Assembly: GCF_000718775.1 (NCBI RefSeq)
Contig: NZ_JOCB01000109.1
Coordinates: 1-51,059, forward strand
DNA: 51,059 nt
Direction of reading: 5' to 3'
Origin: Streptomyces sp. NRRL S-31
GTDB taxonomy: Bacteria > Actinomycetota > Actinomycetes > Streptomycetales > Streptomycetaceae
Below, in pieces: positions 29,435 to 38,983 of the stretch (the first letter of the stretch is position 1; the number at the start of each line of letters is the position of its first letter). Both the position numbers and the translations under genes were made by a program. The notes under the pieces were generated by a model that was given only the letters and a program-made list of their open reading frames with translations, searched no databases and was not told the origin of the DNA.

Positions 29435-31642
29435 TCACCCCTTCTCCAGGTACTGCTCCCGGTCCTCGTCCAGGAGGGCGTCCAGGGCGGTGCGCAGGGC
29501 CGGGAGACCGGTCAGCTCCGGGTCGGCCGCCACGACCGCCGCCGCCTCCTGTCTCGCCTCCGCGATGACCTCCTCGTCCTCGATGACGGCCAGCACCCGC
29601 AGGCTGGAACGGGCGCCGGACTGGGCCTGGCCGAGGACGTCGCCCTCGCGGCGCTGTTCCAGGTCGATGCGGGACAGCTCGAAGCCGTCGAGGGTGGAGG
29701 CGACCGCGTTCAGGCGCTGGCGGGCCGCGCTGGCCTCGGGCATCTCGGTGACCAGCAGACACAGGCCGGGGGCGGAGCCACGGCCGACCCGGCCGCGCAG
29801 CTGGTGCAGTTGGGAGACGCCGAAGCGGTCGGCGTCCATGATGACCATGGCGGTGGCGTTGGGGACGTTGACGCCGACCTCGATGACGGTGGTGGCGACC
29901 AGGACGTCCGTCTCGCCGGCCGCGAAGCGGCGCATCACGGCGTCCTTGTCGTCGGGGTGCATACGGCCGTGCAGGACCTCGACCCGCAGGCCCTCGAGGG
30001 GGCCCCGGGCCAGTTGCCCGGCCACCTCCAGCACGGCCAGCGGCGGGCGCTTCTCCGCCTCGTCCTCGGGGGTCTTCTTCTTCCCGGCCTTCTCGGGGTC
30101 GTCCTCCTCGTCGCCGATGCGGGGACAGACCACGTACGCCTGGTGGCCGCCCGCCACCTCCTCGCGCACCCGCTCCCAGGCGCGGGCCAGGAAGTGGGGC
30201 TTGTCGGCGGCCGGGACGACATGGCTGGCGATCGGGGAGCGGCCGGCCGGGAGCTGGTCCAGGACCGAGGTCTCCAGGTCGCCGAAGACCGTCATGGCGA
30301 CCGTGCGCGGGATGGGCGTCGCCGTCATGACGAGCAGGTGCGGGGGCTGCCTGCCCTTGCCGCGCAGGGCGTCGCGCTGCTCCACGCCGAAGCGGTGCTG
30401 CTCGTCGACCACCACCAGGCCGAGGTCGTGGAACCGGACCTTGTCCTCGATCAGGGCGTGGGTGCCGATGACGATCCCGGCCTCGCCGGTGGCCAGGTCG
30501 AGCAGGGCCTGGCGGCGGGCCGCCGTGCCCATCGAGCCGGTGACCAGCACCACCTTGGTGGCGTGCTCGGCGCCGCCCAGCATGCCCGGCTCGGCCAGGT
30601 CCCCCATCATCTCGGTGATCGAGCGGTGGTGCTGCTGGGCGAGGACCTCGGTGGGCGCGAGCATGGCCGCCTGGCCGCCCGCGTCGACCACGGCGAGCAT
30701 GGCGCGCAGGGCGACCATGGTCTTGCCGGAGCCGACCTCGCCCTGGAGCAGGCGGTGCATCGGGTGGGCCGTGGCGAGGTCGTCGAAGATCTCGCGGGAG
30801 ACCTTGCGCTGGCCCTCGGTGAGGGTGAAGGGGAGGCGGTCGTCGAAGGCCGTGAGGAGGCCGTCGGGCCGGGGGGCGCGGGGGACGGCCGGGAGCTGGG
30901 TGTCGGCGTGCCGGCGGCGGGCCAGGGCGACCTGGAGGACGAACGCCTCGTCCCACTTCAGGCGGGCGCGGGCGTCGTCGATGTCGGCCTTGGTGTGCGG
31001 GCGGTGGATCTTGAGCAGGGCCTCGGGGAGGGTGAGCAGGCCGCGGCCGTCGCGCAGCGAGTCCGGGAGGGGGTCGGCGGCCTCCTGAGCGCTGGGCAGC
31101 ACCGTCTGGACCGCCTTGCCGATCTTCCAGGACTCCAGCTTGGCCGTGGCGGGGTAGAGCGGGATGAGGGCGCCGGCCCAGGTCTCGACGGTCTCCTCGC
31201 CCTCTCCCCGCAGCAACTCGTAGGCGGGGTGGGCGAGCTGGAGGCGGCGGTTGAAGACGGAGACCTTGCCGGCGAACATCGCGCGGGTGCCCGGCAGCAG
31301 CTCCTTGTGGGGCTTGTGCACGCCGGCGCCGAAGAAGACGAGCTGGAGCCGGCCGCTGCCGTCCGTGATGGTGACCTCCAGCCGCTGGCCCTTGCCGCGC
31401 GGGGCCTTGGCCGAGGCGAAGCTGTGCAGCCGGGCGTCGGCGACCTGGGCGACCACCGTGACGTGCTCGTCCATGGGGAGGTCGGCGAGGTGGGTGAGCT
31501 GGCCGCGCTCCTCGTATCTGCGCGGGTAGTGGTGCAGCAGGTCGCCGACGGTGTGCAGGCCGAGGTGCTCGGCCATCACCTTCGCGGTGGCGGGGCCGAG
31601 CACCTTCTTGAGCGGTTCTTGCAGTGCGGGCACGCGAACCAT
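29435..31642 (-). CDS. recG: ATP-dependent DNA helicase RecG
   Basis: This protein of about 735 residues remodels stalled replication forks and Holliday junctions. The wedge (OB) domain occupies the N-terminal third. Helicase motifs are GEVGSGKT (I), VVDEQHRFGVEQRD (II, with DEQH), TATPIPRTVAMT (III), and QLRGRVGRG (VI). An acidic/Lys-rich insertion (EEDDPEKAGKKKTPEDEAEK) between motifs is unusual in length but common in Streptomyces. The ATG at 31640-31642 has no clear Shine-Dalgarno sequence; a GTG three codons later is an alternative. rsmD begins 82 nt downstream. Confidence 0.95.
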   Translation of the reverse strand: MVRVPALQEPLKKVLGPATAKVMAEHLGLHTVGDLLHHYPRRYEERGQLTHLADLPMDEHVTVVAQVADARLHSFASAKAPRGKGQRLEVTITDGSGRLQLVFFGAGVHKPHKELLPGTRAMFAGKVSVFNRRLQLAHPAYELLRGEGEETVETWAGALIPLYPATAKLESWKIGKAVQTVLPSAQEAADPLPDSLRDGRGLLTLPEALLKIHRPHTKADIDDARARLKWDEAFVLQVALARRRHADTQLPAVPRAPRPDGLLTAFDDRLPFTLTEGQRKVSREIFDDLATAHPMHRLLQGEVGSGKTMVALRAMLAVVDAGGQAAMLAPTEVLAQQHHRSITEMMGDLAEPGMLGGAEHATKVVLVTGSMGTAARRQALLDLATGEAGIVIGTHALIEDKVRFHDLGLVVVDEQHRFGVEQRDALRGKGRQPPHLLVMTATPIPRTVAMTVFGDLETSVLDQLPAGRSPIASHVVPAADKPHFLARAWERVREEVAGGHQAYVVCPRIGDEEDDPEKAGKKKTPEDEAEKRPPLAVLEVAGQLARGPLEGLRVEVLHGRMHPDDKDAVMRRFAAGETDVLVATTVIEVGVNVPNATAMVIMDADRFGVSQLHQLRGRVGRGSAPGLCLLVTEMPEASAARQRLNAVASTLDGFELSRIDLEQRREGDVLGQAQSGARSSLRVLAVIEDEEVIAEARQEAAAVVAADPELTGLPALRTALDALLDEDREQYLEKG

Positions 31643-31832
31643 TGCACACCACGGCACTGACAATGCCGTAGCCGCCGCCCTGCCGGTTCCCCGCGAGATG
31701 CCGTAAACATCAGGGAAACTCCTGGTCAGGCAGGATGATCCGGGCCTAGGATGACGCGCTCCGGCCATCCTTCGCGGTCACCGCCCCGCCGGGACCGCCC
31801 GACCCCGCGCCGCCCGCACCGCCTCCGGCGCA
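31643..31832. other. Divergent promoter region, recG / Hsp90 gene
   Basis: A 190-nt gap between divergent genes with one AT-richer patch (about 31690-31750). No gene is supported; promoters of both genes must lie here, but I cannot place them. Confidence 0.4.
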
Positions 31833-33677
31833 GTGACGATGGACTCCCAGACCTCACAGCCGTCCCCGGCATCCCAGTCGCCTCCCCCGTCCCACAGCTT
31901 CCAGGTCGACCTGCGCGGTCTGGTGGACCTGCTCTCCCATCACCTCTACTCCAGTCCCCGGGTCTACCTGCGCGAGCTGTTGCAGAACGCCGTGGACGCC
32001 GTCACCGCCCGGCGGGCCGCCGAGCCGGACGCCCCGGCGCGGGTGCGGCTGTACCCGGTGGACGGCGAGCTGCGGGTGGAGGACACCGGTGTCGGGCTCA
32101 CCGAACCGGACGTGCACGGCCTGCTGGCGACCATCGGCCGCAGCTCCAAGCGGGCCGAAAGCCTGGCGCAGGCCCGGTCGGACTTCCTCGGCCAGTTCGG
32201 CATCGGGCTGCTCGCCTGCTTCCTGGTGGCCGAGCGGATCAGGGTCGTCAGCCGCAGCGCCCGTACACCGGACGCCCCGCCCGTCGAGTGGACGGCCCGG
32301 GACGACGGGTCGTACACCGTGCGGACGCTGCCCGCCGCCGCCCGGCCCGAGCCGGGCACGACCGTGTACCTGACGGCGCGGGCCGGGGCGGCCCAGTGGC
32401 TGGCGCCCGAGCGGGTCCGCGACCTGGCCCGGGACTTCGGCTCCCTGCTGCCGTACGACGTCCGGGTCGGCGACGAGCCGGTCACCGAGCTGCCCGCGCC
32501 CTGGGACCGCGCCCATCCCGGGCCGGCGGACCGGCGGGCGGCGCTGGCCCGGCACTGCCGGGAGCTGTTCGGGTTCACCCCGCTGGACTCGATCGACCTG
32601 CGCGTGCCGCTGGCCGGCATCCGCGGGGTGGCGTACGTGCTGCCGTCGGCGGTCAGTCCGGCGCAGCGGGCGACCCACCGGGTGCACCTGAAGGGCATGC
32701 TGCTCACCGAGCGGGCCGAACAACTCCTGCCGGACTGGGCGTTCTTCGTGCGCTGCGTGCTGGACACCGACAGTCTGCGGCCCACCGCCTCGCGCGAGTC
32801 GCTGTACGAGGACGAGACCCTGGCCGCCGTCCGGGACGCGCTCGGCGAGCGGATCAGGTCCTGGCTCACCGGGCTCGCGGCCGGCGACCCGGAGCGCCTG
32901 TCGGCCTTCCTCGCCGTGCACCACCTGGGCGTGAAGTCGCTCGCCCGGCACGACCGGGAGATGCTGCGCACGATGCTGCCGTGGCTGCCGTTCGAGACGA
33001 CCGACGGGCGGATCTCCCTGGAGGAGTTCGCGCGGCGGCACCCGGTGGTGCACTTCACGCGGACGGTCGAGGAGTACCGGCAGGTCGCGCCGATCGCCTC
33101 GGCACAGGGCGTCGGGGTGGTCAACGGCGGCTACACCTACGACAGCGAGCTGGTCGAGGCGCTGCCGTCGGTGCGGCCGGGGACGGTGGTCGCCGAGCTG
33201 GACGCGGACACCGTGACCGCGCACCTGGACGCGGTCGACCCGGGCGAGGAGCTGGCGCTGTCCGGGTTCCTGGCCGCCGCGAGGGCGAGGCTCGACCCGC
33301 TGGGCTGTGACGTCGTGCTGCGGGCGTTCCACCCGCTGTCCGTGCCCGCGCTGCACCTGGACGACCGCTCCGCCCGGCACGAGCAGGCCCGGGCCGAGGC
33401 CGAGGAGCGGGCCGACGACCTGTGGGCGGGCATCCTGGGGTCGCTGCGCGGCAGCGCCCCGCGCGCGCGTCTGGTGCTCAACCAGCTCAATCCGCTGGTC
33501 CGGCGGATCGGCGCGCTCGGCGATCCGGAGCTGATCGGCACCGCGACCGAGTCGCTGTACGGGCAGGCGCTGCTGATGGCGCGGCGCCCGTTGCGGCCCG
33601 CCGACTCGGCGCTGCTCAACCGGGCGTTCATCGGGCTGCTCGAGTGGGCGACCCACGGGGAGGGGAACGGGCGATGA
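31833..33677 (+). CDS. Hsp90-family (HtpG-like) ATPase
   Basis: This 614-residue protein keeps the GHKL ATPase core of Hsp90: LRELLQNAVDAV (E48, N52), VEDTGVGLTEP (D84, G86, G88) and DFLGQFGIGLLACFLVAE (glycine lid, 118-135). The middle domain carries LRPTASRESLYED, matching the catalytic-arginine loop of HtpG. The C-terminal half is divergent from HtpG and no MEEVD-like tail is present. Either the GTG at 31833 or the ATG at 31839 may start it. Its TGA overlaps the next ATG (ATGA), so the TPR protein downstream is probably its partner. Known Hsp90s fold or remodel client proteins; the client here is unknown. Confidence 0.88.
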   Translation: MTMDSQTSQPSPASQSPPPSHSFQVDLRGLVDLLSHHLYSSPRVYLRELLQNAVDAVTARRAAEPDAPARVRLYPVDGELRVEDTGVGLTEPDVHGLLATIGRSSKRAESLAQARSDFLGQFGIGLLACFLVAERIRVVSRSARTPDAPPVEWTARDDGSYTVRTLPAAARPEPGTTVYLTARAGAAQWLAPERVRDLARDFGSLLPYDVRVGDEPVTELPAPWDRAHPGPADRRAALARHCRELFGFTPLDSIDLRVPLAGIRGVAYVLPSAVSPAQRATHRVHLKGMLLTERAEQLLPDWAFFVRCVLDTDSLRPTASRESLYEDETLAAVRDALGERIRSWLTGLAAGDPERLSAFLAVHHLGVKSLARHDREMLRTMLPWLPFETTDGRISLEEFARRHPVVHFTRTVEEYRQVAPIASAQGVGVVNGGYTYDSELVEALPSVRPGTVVAELDADTVTAHLDAVDPGEELALSGFLAAARARLDPLGCDVVLRAFHPLSVPALHLDDRSARHEQARAEAEERADDLWAGILGSLRGSAPRARLVLNQLNPLVRRIGALGDPELIGTATESLYGQALLMARRPLRPADSALLNRAFIGLLEWATHGEGNGR

Positions 33678-36631
33678 GCGGGATCACGGACCTCGACGCG
33701 CTGCGCCAAGCGCTGGCGGAGAACGCCGAGGAGCCGGAGGGGCCGGCCCGCAACGCGCGCGCGGAGCACCTGCTGGCGGAGGCCGAGAGGCTGGACGTCC
33801 CGCTCGCCGTGATCGAGGCGCTCGGGCACCAGCTGAAGGTCTACAACTACAGCTCCGAGAAGGACAGGATGTTCGTCCCGTTCGCGCGGCTGCTGCGCAT
33901 GTGGGACGAACGGCCGGAGGACTTCGACGCCTACGAGGCGCACACGCTGCACTGGGTCTTCAAGTGGGTGTCGGCGGGCATGCTGGACCAGCCGCACGTC
34001 CCGCTCGCCTCGGTCGAGAAGTGGCTCGCCGAGATGGAGCACCGCTACCGGCTCGCCGGGCACTCCGAACGGGCGGTGCGCGGCGCCGAGTTCACCGTGG
34101 CCGCGCACATCGGTGACCTCGCGCGCGCGGAGCGGGCGTACGCCGCGTGGCTGGCCGCCGACCGGGACGAGATGGCCGACTGCGAGGCGTGCGAGCTGCA
34201 CGGGCAGGGCACCTGGCAGGTCCGCCGCGGCCGGGACGCGGCGGCGCTCGGGCTGTGGCGGCCGGTGCTGGAGGGCGAGCTGGCGTGCGCGCACGAGCCG
34301 CACTCCGTGCTGGCCGCCTCGCTGCTCCCGCTGCTGCGGCTCGGCCGCGCGGACGAGGCCCGCGCGCACCATCTGCGCGGCTTCCGGCTGGTCCGCCCGA
34401 TGGAGAGCATGCGGAGCGCGTTCGCGGAGCACGTGGAGTTCTGTGCGCTGACCGGCAACGAGGCGCGCGGTCTGGAGCTGCTGGCCGAGCGGCCGGCGTA
34501 CTTCACGGACACCGGGCATCCGCGCAGCCGGCTGGAGTTCATGGCCGTGGTGACGCTGCTGACGGACCGGCTGACCGAGCTGGGGCTGGGCGAGCGGCGG
34601 GTGCCGGGGCCGGCCGGGCGGAGCTGGACCGCGCGGGAACTCGCCGCGCACGCGCGCGCGGAGGCCATGGAACTCGCCGGGCGGTTCGACCGCCGCAACG
34701 GCACCGGTGACGTCGGCGACCGGATCCGCGCGCGGATGGCGCAGCGCCCGCTGGTGGAGCGGCTGCCGCTGGGGGTGCGGACCGTACGGCCCGCGCCGGC
34801 GCCGGTGGCCGCTCCGGCGGTGCCGGACGTCCCCGGCGGGGCCGGTCTGCCCGCCCTGCTGGCCGAGGCGCGGCGGCTGTCGGAGTCCCTGCGGCCGCAC
34901 GCGCTTGAGGCGTGGGCGGCGGTGGCGCGGGCCGCCGGGGACACCGAGCTGGCGCCGCGCGACCGCGCGGAGATCGCCGACCACGAGGCGATGGCGCGCG
35001 GCCCCGAGGGGGTCGCCCTGTTCGAGCGGGCGGCGGAGCTGTATGCGGCTGCGGGCGACCCCGGGGAAGCGCTGGCGGCCCGCGCGCGCGGGGCGTACGT
35101 CCGCGCGCTCACCGGCGAGGTCACCGCGGCCCTGGCCACGGTCACGGAGCTATACGACGAGGCGCTCGCGCTGTACGCCGACGCGGGCACCGGGGTACGG
35201 CAGACCGCGTCGGTGCTGATGAGCCGCGCGCGGGTGCTGATGCGGCGGGTGCACGAGGCGGCCGGGCAGGGGGCACGGGACGAGCGGGCCGTCGCACGGG
35301 CCGTCGCGGACGCGGAGGCGGCCGTACGGGAGGTGCGGGCGCTCGTCGGGGAGCGGGGCGCGGACGACGTGCGGCTGGCGGCGCGGACCGCCGAGGCGCG
35401 GGCGATGCGCGCCGAGCTGGCCGGGCTCACCGGGGACGCGGAGCGGGCGGCACAGCTGTTCCGGCGGGCCGCCGACGCGTACGTGGCCGCCGGGCTGCCC
35501 TGGTTCGCGGTGGAGTACGAGGTACAGGTCGCCGCACTCGCCCACCAGGCCGGTGACCTGGCCGGGTCGGAGCGGGCGCTGCGGGCGGCCGTGGAGCACG
35601 GCGGGCCGTACGTGGAGCCGGTCGGGCGGGCCCAGCTGCACCTCCAGCTGGCCGAGGTGCTCGGCGCGCTGGACGCGCCCGGCGAGGCGGCCGAGCACGC
35701 GCTGGAGGCCGCGCACTGGGCCGACGAGGCCGGGGAGAGCGCCACCCTGGGCGCCTGGGCGCGGCAGCAGTTGGGGGGTTTCCTGCTGCGTCTGGGCCGG
35801 TACGCGGAGGCCGCCGAGGTGCTGGAGTCGGCGCTGGCCGACCTGAGCGCCGGTACGCACGGCGACGGGGCGGTCGTCCAGGCCCGCTGGTGGCTCGGGG
35901 ACTGCCTGGGCGAGCTGGGTGAGCACCGGGCCGCGGCCGAGCAGCGGCTCCAGGCCGCCGACCTGGCCCGGCACTGGCCGGAGCAGCAGGACCACGCCAC
36001 GCTCGCCCACCTCGCCGCCGAGTCGCTGGGCAACGCGGGACTGGCGGCGGAGGCGGGCCGGGCCTACGCGCGCGCGGGCGACCTGTGGCAGGCACTCGGC
36101 AACGCCCCGTTCCTGGTCCGCTCGCTGCGCGCCCGCGCGTGGCTGGCGCTGGACGACCCGGCCGGGACGGCGGAGGCCCGCGCGCTGATGGCGCGGGCGG
36201 TGCGGGAGTGCGAGACGGCGCTGGCGGCGGCCGAGGACCCGGAGCGGGCCGAGCTGGCGGCGGAACTGGGCGGCACGCACCGGCAGTTCGCGCAGTTGCT
36301 GACCCGGGTGGCGGTGGCGGAGACCGAGGAGCCGGGGGACGCGGCGGTCCGGGCCGGGCTGGAGGCGGCGCTGGAGCGGATGTCCCGGGCCGTGGCGGTG
36401 TTCGCCGGGCTCGGCGCGGCCGGACTGCACGACCGTACCGGCGCCGAACTGGACGCGGCCCGGCTGGAGGCCGACCTCGGCCGGCCGGAACGGGCGGCGG
36501 CACGCGCGCGTGCGGTGCTCGCGGCCTACGCGGGCGCCGACGACGGGGACGACACGGTCCGGTCACGACGGGACGAGGCGACCCGGGTGCTGACGGCGGC
36601 CCGGGAGGGGACGGACGCGGACCGGCACTGA
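33674..36631 (+). CDS. Large TPR-like repeat protein coupled to the Hsp90 gene
   Basis: This 985-residue protein is almost entirely alpha-helical with TPR-type spacing (A/G/L at helix contacts): ALFERAAELYAAAGDPGEAL, AAQLFRRAADAYVAAGLPWF, AEVLGALDAPGEAAEHALEAAHW, LGRYAEAAEVLESALADL and AGRAYARAGDLWQALG. The N-terminal third is distinct (HTLHWVFKWVSAGMLDQPHV; then DCEACELHGQGTW with a C-x2-C). There is no signal peptide, membrane helix or catalytic motif that I recognise. The ATG overlaps the Hsp90 stop codon and follows GAGGGGAACGG. Coupling to an Hsp90 suggests a co-chaperone or client adaptor, as TPR proteins are in eukaryotes; this is inference. Confidence 0.85.
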   Translation: MSGITDLDALRQALAENAEEPEGPARNARAEHLLAEAERLDVPLAVIEALGHQLKVYNYSSEKDRMFVPFARLLRMWDERPEDFDAYEAHTLHWVFKWVSAGMLDQPHVPLASVEKWLAEMEHRYRLAGHSERAVRGAEFTVAAHIGDLARAERAYAAWLAADRDEMADCEACELHGQGTWQVRRGRDAAALGLWRPVLEGELACAHEPHSVLAASLLPLLRLGRADEARAHHLRGFRLVRPMESMRSAFAEHVEFCALTGNEARGLELLAERPAYFTDTGHPRSRLEFMAVVTLLTDRLTELGLGERRVPGPAGRSWTARELAAHARAEAMELAGRFDRRNGTGDVGDRIRARMAQRPLVERLPLGVRTVRPAPAPVAAPAVPDVPGGAGLPALLAEARRLSESLRPHALEAWAAVARAAGDTELAPRDRAEIADHEAMARGPEGVALFERAAELYAAAGDPGEALAARARGAYVRALTGEVTAALATVTELYDEALALYADAGTGVRQTASVLMSRARVLMRRVHEAAGQGARDERAVARAVADAEAAVREVRALVGERGADDVRLAARTAEARAMRAELAGLTGDAERAAQLFRRAADAYVAAGLPWFAVEYEVQVAALAHQAGDLAGSERALRAAVEHGGPYVEPVGRAQLHLQLAEVLGALDAPGEAAEHALEAAHWADEAGESATLGAWARQQLGGFLLRLGRYAEAAEVLESALADLSAGTHGDGAVVQARWWLGDCLGELGEHRAAAEQRLQAADLARHWPEQQDHATLAHLAAESLGNAGLAAEAGRAYARAGDLWQALGNAPFLVRSLRARAWLALDDPAGTAEARALMARAVRECETALAAAEDPERAELAAELGGTHRQFAQLLTRVAVAETEEPGDAAVRAGLEAALERMSRAVAVFAGLGAAGLHDRTGAELDAARLEADLGRPERAAARARAVLAAYAGADDGDDTVRSRRDEATRVLTAAREGTDADRH

Positions 36632-36910
36632 GCCCCCGCGGACTCCCGCCGCCCACCACGACCGACGGCCCCCACGCACCGGCCCCCGGCCGCGCGAGCG
36701 GCGCCCACGGCCCCGGGACGCCCACCCGCGCACCGGCTCGCCCCGGAGACGCACGGACACCGAAGGAGACGGCCCCGGCCCCACCCCGGCCGAAAACACC
36801 GCACACTCCCCACCGCCCACCGCCACCCACGGCACCCACACACCGGCCCCCGGCCACCCGGCCACGCGAGTGGCGACCCGCACTGTGCGGCGCCCACGGC
36901 CCTCGACGGC
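36632..36910. other. Gene-free region with duplicated segments
   Basis: No coding frame is convincing. CACCGGCCCCCGGCC recurs near 36678 and 36841, each followed by GCGAG and GGCGCCCACGGCC, so a block of roughly 50 bp seems to be imperfectly duplicated about 165 bp apart. Confidence 0.5.
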
Positions 36911-37171
36911 CGGCCGGGCGCCGGAACGGCCAGGCCCCGGGACGGCCGGGTGCCGGGACAGCCAGGCGCCGGGACAGCCGGGTGCCGGAAGGGCCGGACG
37001 CCAGAGGGGCGGGGCGCCGGGACGGCCGGATGCCGGGACAGCCAGGCGCCGGAACGGCCGGGCGCCGGGAGGACCGGAGGCCAGGCCAGAACTACCGGGC
37101 ACCGGAGCAGCCGGACCCCGGAAGGGCCGGACCCCGGAGGGGCCGGGCTGCGGGACGGCCGGACGCCGGGA
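36911..37171. repeat. 16-bp tandem repeat array, about 16 copies
   Basis: From 36911 to 37171 the sequence is a head-to-tail array of a degenerate 16-bp unit, approximately CGGCCGGGCGCCGGGA. Most units are exactly 16 bp; one near 37087 is 21 bp. Each unit holds CCGG-type half sites and can pair with itself. Because 16 is not a multiple of three and all frames are low complexity, I read it as non-coding. Confidence 0.85.
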
Positions 37172-37180
37172 AGGGGCTGA

Positions 37181-37270
37181 GCCGGGGTCCGGTCGGTCGG
37201 GGCGGAGTCGGGGTCCGGTTGGTCGGGGTCCGGTCGGTCGGGGCGAGTCGCGGTCCGGTCGGGGCGGGCG
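37181..37270. repeat. Second repeat block (GGGGTCCGGTCGGT units)
   Basis: GGGGTCCGGT recurs several times with GTCGGGGCGGAGTC-like spacers between the 16-bp array and the DAK gene stop codon. It differs in unit and length from the first array. Confidence 0.7.
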
Positions 37271-37300
37271 GGCGTCGGGCGCGGCCCCGGGGCCGGTGGG

Positions 37301-38983
37301 TCACTCCACGCCGATGAGCAGCAGTGCTCCCTGTCGGCCGCCGCGGTAGACCACCGTGTCCACGGCCAGGTAGGACTCCCGTACCCGGGCCTCCAGGTGC
37401 GCGGCGACGCTCGCGGGTGCCTCGTCGCCGATGACGAGGGTGACCAGTTCGCCGCCGGCCTGGAGCATGCGGTCGAGGACGGTCCGGGCGGTGGTCGTGA
37501 CGTCCGCGCCGATCACGGCCACGTCCCCGTCGATCAGGCCGAGGACGTCCCCGGCCTGGCAGATGCCGGCCGTCGTCCAGGACTGGTGCTCCGCCACGGC
37601 GACCTCGGCGTACCGGGTGGCGCCGGCCGCCGAGGTCATCTGGACGACGTCCTCGTCGAACCGGCGCTCCGGCTCGTGCACGGCGAGCGCGGCGATGCCC
37701 TGGACCGCCGAGCGGGTGGGGATGAGGGCCACCCGGACGCCCTCGGCGCGGGCCTGTTCGGCCGCCGCGGCGGCGGTGTGGCGCAGCTCGGCGTCGTTGG
37801 GCAGCAGCACGACCTCGCGCGCGTGGGCACGCCGTACGGCCTGGACCAGCTCGCCGCTGGCGGGCGGTTCTCCGGGGCGGGCCAGCACGGTGGTCGCGCC
37901 GGCCTCGGCGTACAGCCCGGCCAGCCCCTCGCCGGGCACCACGGCGACCACGGCCCGCTGGGCGCGCTCGGGGGACGGGCGTGCGCCGCCGGTGTGCGCG
38001 TCGCCGAGCCCGAAGTGGGTGATCCGGATCCGGTACGGCCGTCCGGCCTCCACTCCGGCCTCCACGGCGGCGCCGGCGTCGTCGACGTGCACGTGGACGT
38101 TCCACAGGCCGTCGCCGCCGACCACGACCAGGGAGTCCCCGAGGGCGTCGAGCCGCGCGCGCAGCCGGGTCACGGCCGCGTCGTCGGCCTCCAGCAGGTA
38201 GATCACCTCGAACGCGGGCCCGCCGGTCCCGGCCGCGTCGGGGCACGGCTCGGCACCGGCACCAACACCCGCGTCCTCGCGCGCGGGCCCGCCGGACGGC
38301 GCGTCGGCCGACTTCGCGGGTTCCCGTACGGCTTCCCCGGTGCACGCCTCCACCAGCGCCCCCAGCACCGCCAGCAGCCCCCGGCCGCCCGCGTCGACCA
38401 CCCCGGCCCGGCGCAGCACGGGCAGCCGGTCCGGGGTCGCCGCCAGGGCCGTGCGCGCGCCTTCGTAGGCGGCCCGCGCGACCGCCCCGCAGTCGCCCTC
38501 GGCCCGCTCGGCGGCGACGGCGGCGGCCGAGGCGACCGTCAGCACCGTGCCCTCGACGGGGTGGGCCACGGCCTGCCGGGCGGAGTCGGCGGCCCGGCGC
38601 AGGGCCAGCCGCAGCCCGGAGCCGTCGGCGCGGGACGGCTCGGCGGTCTCCGCGAGGACCTGGGCCATGCCGCGCAGCAGCTGCGCGAGGATGGTCCCGG
38701 AGTTGCCCCGGGCCCCGATGAGCGCGCCGTGCGCCATGGCCCGCACCGCGTCCGCGAGGGACGGTTCGGCGCAGCCGGTCCCGTACCCGGCGAACACCGC
38801 CTCCACGGCCGTGGCCGCCGACTCCAGGGTCAGGTAGAGGTTCGTCCCGGTGTCGCCGTCCGCCACCGGGTAGACGTTGATCGCGTCGATCTCCTCCCGG
38901 GCGCGCCCCACCGCCCGGAGCGCCAGACCGCACCAGGTGCGCACCGCGAGAGCATCGAAGAACGTCTGCGGCACCTGCGCCAC
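37301..38983 (-). CDS. DAK2/DhaL-domain kinase-like protein (FakA-like)
   Basis: This 560-residue protein begins with a DAK2 (DhaL) domain: INVYPVADGDTGTNLYLT (ADP-Mg binding), GARGNSGTILAQLLRG and VVDAGGRGL. A linker rich in Ala, Gly and Asp follows (about 225-255), then a C-terminal domain of the FakA type with NVHVHVDDAGAAVEAG and VVLLPNDAELR. FakA phosphorylates fatty acids held by FakB proteins in Firmicutes; the actinobacterial role is not established to my knowledge. The GTG follows GGGAGG. It is divergent from rpmB, as in mycobacteria. Confidence 0.87.
   Translation of the reverse strand: MAQVPQTFFDALAVRTWCGLALRAVGRAREEIDAINVYPVADGDTGTNLYLTLESAATAVEAVFAGYGTGCAEPSLADAVRAMAHGALIGARGNSGTILAQLLRGMAQVLAETAEPSRADGSGLRLALRRAADSARQAVAHPVEGTVLTVASAAAVAAERAEGDCGAVARAAYEGARTALAATPDRLPVLRRAGVVDAGGRGLLAVLGALVEACTGEAVREPAKSADAPSGGPAREDAGVGAGAEPCPDAAGTGGPAFEVIYLLEADDAAVTRLRARLDALGDSLVVVGGDGLWNVHVHVDDAGAAVEAGVEAGRPYRIRITHFGLGDAHTGGARPSPERAQRAVVAVVPGEGLAGLYAEAGATTVLARPGEPPASGELVQAVRRAHAREVVLLPNDAELRHTAAAAAEQARAEGVRVALIPTRSAVQGIAALAVHEPERRFDEDVVQMTSAAGATRYAEVAVAEHQSWTTAGICQAGDVLGLIDGDVAVIGADVTTTARTVLDRMLQAGGELVTLVIGDEAPASVAAHLEARVRESYLAVDTVVYRGGRQGALLLIGVE

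Follow-up and report, generated by a model that had tools for sequence, protein, structure and literature searches.

The Hsp90s of eukaryotes act with tetratricopeptide repeat (TPR) co-chaperones such as Hop/Sti1 and FKBP51, helical-repeat proteins that work with Hsp90 via MEEVD, and other chaperone components, including Hsp33 and the zinc domain of DnaJ, carry conserved cysteine motifs and bind zinc or sense oxidation. The accessible part of Chen et al. 2006 (PMC1525184) lists a second HtpG of Streptomyces coelicolor, HTPG2 (NP_625688.1; 615 aa), assigns the two S. coelicolor copies to different groups, and has a basal Group C in its Hsp90 tree. The family entry NF010683/PRK14083, named 'HSP90 family protein', covers the Hsp90 alone.

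Here we analyse a stretch of 51,059 nucleotides from Streptomyces sp. NRRL S-31 (the window) in which an Hsp90 gene is followed by the gene for a second, larger protein, the partner. HTPG2 is a second Streptomyces HtpG of near-equal length to the window Hsp90, a likeness by description only, and the word tetratricopeptide is absent from the main text of Chen et al. The window Hsp90 is a clear NF010683 member, to which the pair adds a partner without a family in Pfam, NCBIfam or PADLOC. It shares its three-domain (N-M-C) architecture and ATPase residues with HtpG, but differs from it in tree position and in having the partner beside it. As with Hop/Sti1 and FKBP51, a helical-repeat protein accompanies an Hsp90, but this Hsp90 lacks MEEVD, the conserved portion of the partner is a cysteine-motif domain with no Pfam TPR hit, and the TPR part is optional. 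The conserved cysteine motif is also common to Hsp33 and the DnaJ zinc domain, a likeness by motif description in which metal binding by the partner is putative. We found no description of the pair in the accessible text of open-licence PubMed Central papers; an earlier note on this DNA had named a previous characterisation of the pair as refuting its proposal, and none was seen there. That note's proposal of an undescribed system holds to this extent for the pair, but not for the Hsp90, whose family is already named and whose possible S. coelicolor counterpart, HTPG2, is listed by Chen et al.

Results

Two overlapping genes between recG and DAK2

The window lies in an 8.7-Mb genome (contig C109), and the closest relatives of both proteins of the pair are from Streptomyces. 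The two genes lie on the forward strand between recG and a DAK2/YloV-type gene, both on the reverse strand, in the order recG (-), Hsp90 (+), partner (+), DAK2/YloV (-) (Table 1). The earlier note had read here an Hsp90 with intact ATPase motifs and no MEEVD tail, its gene overlapping that of a 985-residue protein by ATGA, and the closer analysis agrees on each point. The overlap is present in the sequence; E48, N52, D55, D84, G120, G123 and G125, which we take to be the GHKL ATP-site residues, and R321, presumably the middle-domain arginine, are invariant in 57 aligned Hsp90 rows; and no MEEVD C-terminus occurs in 20 aligned rows, whose tails are variable. The N, middle and C-terminal Hsp90 domains are all matched when the AlphaFold model is compared with TRAP1, HtpG and Hsp90, and judged by sequence and model the protein has the complete N-M-C architecture and is likely to form dimers and to run through an ATP cycle.

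In profile searches the window Hsp90 scores 859.9 bits with NF010683 (cut-off 455) and 169.3 bits with the HtpG model NF003555, below its cut-off of 371. An ordinary HtpG is also present in the same genome, on contig C26 (411.6 bits with PF00183), so that the pair Hsp90 represents a second, distinct Hsp90. A single branch splits pair-type Hsp90s from ordinary HtpG in each of two trees (95 against 21 rows, and 38 against 21), and by these trees the pair-type Hsp90 is a branch separate from HtpG.

Table 1. Positions of the two genes, their parts and flanking features in the window.
Feature	Position	Strand	Evidence
Hsp90 gene, NF010683 type, 614 aa; alternative ATG start at 31839	31833..33677	+	NF010683 859.9 bits, cut-off 455; TRAP1, HtpG and Hsp90 match the AlphaFold model in all three domains
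Partner gene, 985 aa, all-helical	33674..36631	+	Translation; model pLDDT 95.3, pTM 0.92; adjoins Hsp90 in 51/52 and 79/80 relatives
Conserved N-terminal partner domain, residues 1-365	33674..34768	+	Alignments, six-frame HMM hits, ORF lengths
C170-x2-C173 ... C205 motif of the partner domain, with H233 (34370) and H253 (34430) conserved as well; putative metal or redox site	34181..34288	+	Cys in 81/81 domains, each His in 76/81; absent in L100
C-terminal TPR solenoid, residues 392-985, actinomycete extension	34847..36628	+	
ATGA stop-start overlap of Hsp90 and partner genes	33674..33677	+	Sequence
Putative promoter-like element ahead of the Hsp90 gene: TGGTCA-N18-TAGGAT	31723..31752	+	TGGTCA in 15/15 and TAGGAT in 13/15 recG-locus copies, spacing 17-18
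recG, flanking gene outside the system	29435..31642	-	NF008167, 1153.7 bits
DAK2-domain YloV-type gene, flanking gene outside the system	37301..38983	-	TIGR03599, 447.8 bits

Upstream of the pair, the element TGGTCA-N17/18-TAGGAT is conserved in the recG-locus copies. The vegetative promoter consensus resembles it, and it looks like a vegetative promoter, although a generic sigma-70 scan did not match it. Promoter and terminator scans of positions 31600-37400 found none, and no HspR (HAIR) site with up to three mismatches occurs in the window. With a vegetative-like promoter and no HspR site, heat-shock control is not indicated. Much of the intergenic stretch between the partner and DAK genes is filled by GC-rich degenerate tandem repeats (36911-37268), with units of 16, 80 and 41 bases in up to 16 copies.

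The recG–DAK site is variable. We compared 18 same-genus genomes without an NF010683 gene at recG, 14 of them without one anywhere (E 1e-80) and four with one elsewhere, and the DAK gene is beside recG in 16; the remaining two are L219, where a partner-like gene is present, and L230, where recG is in two pieces. The emptiness of the site in these Streptomyces agrees with the suggestion that the pair interrupts recG and DAK, and it may reflect either gain or loss of the pair.

A conserved cysteine-motif domain with an optional TPR extension

Alignments, six-frame HMM hits and ORF lengths agree that the conserved portion of the partner is its first ~365 residues and not the TPR stretch, and in 16 of 16 complete genes from outside the actinomycetes this domain constitutes the entire protein. 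From this distribution of sequences, the TPR solenoid is an actinomycete extension. Fold comparison identifies residues ~462-880 as a TPR solenoid, the Pfam TPR hits being below threshold, and aligns the TPR part with RapI; by its solenoid fold the C-terminal part belongs to the TPR superfamily. The earlier description of the partner as a TPR-like helical-repeat protein is therefore apt for the C-terminal part, but the portion that is conserved is the N-terminal cysteine-motif domain.

Within the partner domain a C-x2-C...C motif is invariant in 81 of 81 aligned sequences, and H233 and H253 are each kept in 76 of the 81; one further copy, actinomycete L100, lacks the cysteine motif. This site, with its histidines, is probably a zinc site or a sensor of thiol oxidation. 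No family in Pfam, NCBIfam or PADLOC matches the window partner above threshold, four stand-alone partner domains match no Pfam family and give no Pfam TPR hit, and among the matches listed the current annotation of partner relatives is mostly 'tetratricopeptide repeat protein' or 'hypothetical protein'. A profile search of the N-terminal domain against solved structures yielded nothing beyond PPR/TPR proteins, designed helical ones and matches that were short and weak (best E 2e-6). No recognised Hsp90 co-chaperone is among the listed fold-comparison rows, which barely cover the N-terminal region of the model and so say little about it.

The partner domain is linked to pair-type Hsp90s

To survey the pair we used a phylum sample of 296 Actinomycetota genomes and a class sample of 394 Actinomycetes genomes. 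The NF010683 cut-off is exceeded in 10 of the former and 46 of the latter, including 26 of 40 Streptomyces (the window's own genome among them). Of 14 control genomes, those of Deinobacterium chartae and Corynebacterium glutamicum also exceed it. The 46 class genomes hold 53 NF010683 genes including that of the window, and the other 52 loci were fetched. A partner homologue directly follows the Hsp90 in 51 of these 52, recognised in 49 by a direct match to the window protein, in L068 through a match to L105, and in L092 through a separate match. A start codon 4 bases ahead of the Hsp90 stop was chosen for 28 of the 53, a count biased upward by a method that preferred the starts nearest to that point.

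A scan across phyla, with one genome per species and patterns derived from pair-type Hsp90s, gave 569 confirmed loci, of which the best 80 were examined: 60 from Actinomycetota, 10 from Myxococcota, six from Planctomycetota, two from Acidobacteriota, one from Bacillota and one without phylum assignment. The partner domain is beside the Hsp90 in 79 of these best 80, on the same strand and directly downstream in 78 and on the opposite strand in one (L201); at the 80th (L164) the contig stops 47 bases past the match. Several of the partners are themselves cut by contig ends, with as few as 62 residues visible in L138. As a control, we searched 20 canonical HtpG loci from phylum-sample genomes, 19 of them with at least 4.9 kb after the match, and did not find the partner domain (best E 0.44); a first control with 21 HtpG loci and short flanks likewise gave none. 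The proposal of a two-gene unit is thus borne out at 51 of 52 class loci and at 79 of the best 80 of 569 cross-phylum loci, and the two families do not occur mostly apart, the outcome that the earlier note would have taken as refuting it. The pair is not confined to Streptomyces but is found in five phyla.

Hsp90 and partner are inherited together. Seven genomes contain two pairs. Six of them were compared, and in all six an Hsp90 and its neighbour have their nearest relatives in one and the same clade; G624 was excluded, since L100, its second copy, had been dropped. Distance matrices of the two proteins, calculated without L100, L101, L107 and L108, correlate with r 0.947 (n=49; none of 2000 permutations was as high), a correlation to which species history also contributes, and the single nearest neighbour is identical for both proteins in 32 of 49 cases.

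The surroundings of the pair are less constant. recG adjoins it in 16 of the 53 class loci, and clade-specific neighbours include one gene upstream in three loci, which we take to be mshC-like, and one nearby in three, presumably malate dehydrogenase-like. Clustering of neighbours gave no third conserved gene common to all clades, and a conserved third member was rejected. Because the flanking genes vary between clades, the pair itself is the unit. In one Streptomyces clade of seven loci (L082, L083, L086, L089, L091, L092 and L093) a helical protein of ~325-390 aa (one frame has 505 aa) is encoded just upstream of the Hsp90, and there it is possibly a third component.

Unpaired and atypical copies

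A profile of partner residues 1-400 matched at 29 places, spread over 25 of 197 genomes; 26 of the places are beside an NF010683 Hsp90 and three are not. L129 is a full-length orphan partner in a same-genus genome without NF010683. In L130 (9032-11106) a partner domain without Hsp90 has a YbjN end by Pfam and is preceded by a second YbjN gene, with genes nearby that we take to be ftsK-like and dapA-like; L131 (9265-11019) also lacks the Hsp90 and has a similar YbjN-type end, judged by eye. The partner-like gene at recG mentioned above (L219:4036-5211, genome G655) matches at 71% over residues 7-402, with no Hsp90 match in the fetched flank, and the same genome holds a complete pair elsewhere (L078). 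The orphan partner domains and L219 indicate that the domain need not have an Hsp90 next to it.

A different arrangement is seen at L108 (8204-10869), where a divergent Hsp90 (34%; 479.8 bits, above the NF010683 cut-off) overlaps by 4 bases the gene of a 297-aa protein with Pfam TPR matches. We detected no relation between this TPR protein and the usual partner, and L108 is a possible case of an independent Hsp90-TPR pairing.

Plasmid, phage and gammaproteobacterial relatives

Among 72,556 plasmid records nine contain a relative of any kind (E 1e-30), as do 11 among 50,697 phage records (E 1e-10). With so few such records the pair is not mainly mobile, and an origin mainly from mobile elements, plasmids or phages was rejected. 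Seven of the 20 matches were inspected. Four of them have the pair with the partner domain, namely a plasmid of Streptomyces globosus, the Paenibacillus and Listeria monocytogenes records and a gut scaffold with the label 'Bacteriophage sp.'. Pseudanabaena has a TPR gene one gene further on from the Hsp90, which matches the partner-domain HMM with E 0.01 only. At the Listeria locus (L233:6791-8759) a single Hsp90 gene is followed by two partner-domain genes in tandem, and fri lies alongside. We take lmo0941 to be the Listeria partner gene. In the accessible text of two papers, lmo0941 is called of unknown function (2019, PMC6901971) and lmo0942 adjoins fri (2012, PMC3534079), as fri adjoins the Hsp90 in L233.

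In a Xanthomonas plasmid and in Salmonella Infantis an Hsp90-like gene is followed by a ~770-aa TPR-like gene, and 149 of the 5426 complete E. coli genomes have the same kind of pair, annotated 'ATP-binding protein' and 'hypothetical protein', always chromosomal and at 60-80% DNA identity. In the one E. coli genome inspected (L238:9001-13144) it lies between fdhD and yiiG. Two gammaproteobacterial Hsp90s score 277-286 bits with NF010683, below its cut-off, against 185-195 with HtpG, and in the tree the gammaproteobacterial Hsp90s stand apart from both the pair-type and HtpG groups. Their partners are not matched by the partner-domain HMM. H66, C101, C106, C144 and C147 are present in 29 of 29 gammaproteobacterial partner rows chosen from 86 relatives, and in an hhalign comparison their CxxC lines up with the CxxC of the window family (142 columns, probability 84.4%, E 7e-6), which is suggestive, though not proof, of common descent of the two groups of partners.

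Discussion

An ATP-driven clamp that is made together with a helical neighbour, and kept with it in distant phyla, reads most simply as a chaperone with a dedicated co-chaperone. On balance we favour this reading, in which the ATP-driven Hsp90 is served by a partner that is probably metal-binding or redox-sensitive. The Hsp90 would dimerise and cycle with ATP as a clamp, with the neighbouring partner as its obligate regulator. The N-terminal cysteine-motif domain of the partner would dock on the Hsp90 by an MEEVD-independent route, the C-x2-C...C site and its histidines would carry metal or redox control, and the docked partner would set the ATPase cycle of the Hsp90 or its loading with clients; in Actinomycetota the added C-terminal TPR solenoid may hold clients or adaptors. 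What the sequences establish is the existence of the two genes, their linkage and joint inheritance, the domain layout and the conserved residues; a chaperone system in function we infer, and with it physical binding of the two proteins, the metal or redox role, the clients and the effect on the ATPase.

The same linkage would also be seen if the partner were a dedicated client, a large helical protein that carries out the actual task, perhaps as a scaffold, and that the Hsp90 folds or holds; co-translation would suit a chaperone and its client, and a few genomes retain the partner domain with no Hsp90 beside it. We think this unlikely, since the conserved ~365-residue helical core is modelled with high confidence by AlphaFold and is not obviously a difficult fold, and since the existence of orphans means that the Hsp90 need not be required for folding.

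Another explanation gives the pair a signalling role, the partner being a metal, redox or ligand sensor with RapI-like TPRs that uses the Hsp90 as an ATP-driven actuator on a regulator. The conserved cysteine motif and the alignment of the TPR part with RapI are consistent with such a switch, as is the joining of the partner domain to YbjN, in Pfam a putative sensory transduction regulator, in L130 and, by eye, L131. The clades, however, share no conserved third gene that might be its output, and we regard a switch of this kind as rather improbable.

A role in anti-phage defence or another conflict might be suspected from the patchy presence of the pair (26 of 40 Streptomyces genomes) and from copies on plasmids. 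In PADLOC the Hsp90 ATPase domain alone matches parts of the TmtA and type II restriction enzyme models, its likeness to TmtA reaching E 5e-8 for the window protein and 2e-15 for the Listeria protein. No PADLOC system with both genes was matched, however, none of the four partner proteins tested has a PADLOC family, and several clades have the pair at a recurring position among ordinary genes, which also argues against defence, a role that we consider very unlikely. That the Hsp90 is simply a paralogue from an already named family, with its neighbour conserved merely by operon inertia, is scarcely credible given a linkage that has persisted in five phyla, with outer neighbours that differ from clade to clade.

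If the pair is a chaperone with its dedicated co-chaperone, a broader proposal, which we make tentatively and would not yet back against the alternatives, is that these Hsp90s form a separate and possibly ancient bacterial branch with a dedicated metal- or redox-sensing helical co-chaperone, linked in five phyla and with the Hsp90 and TPR pairs of Gammaproteobacteria, E. coli included, as more distant cases. Were this true, eukaryotes would not have invented the dependence of Hsp90 on co-chaperones, and TPR extensions for selecting clients would have arisen a further time in Actinomycetota.

The analysis points to a widespread and so far unnamed gene family as a candidate Hsp90 partner that can be put to the test, and the pair in E. 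coli offers a distant counterpart in a workable host. A partner linked to Hsp90 in five phyla gives a direct handle on the interaction between a bacterial Hsp90 and a helper, and on when Hsp90 first had helpers. These observations suggest that bacterial Hsp90s can have dedicated helpers, as those of animals, plants and fungi do.
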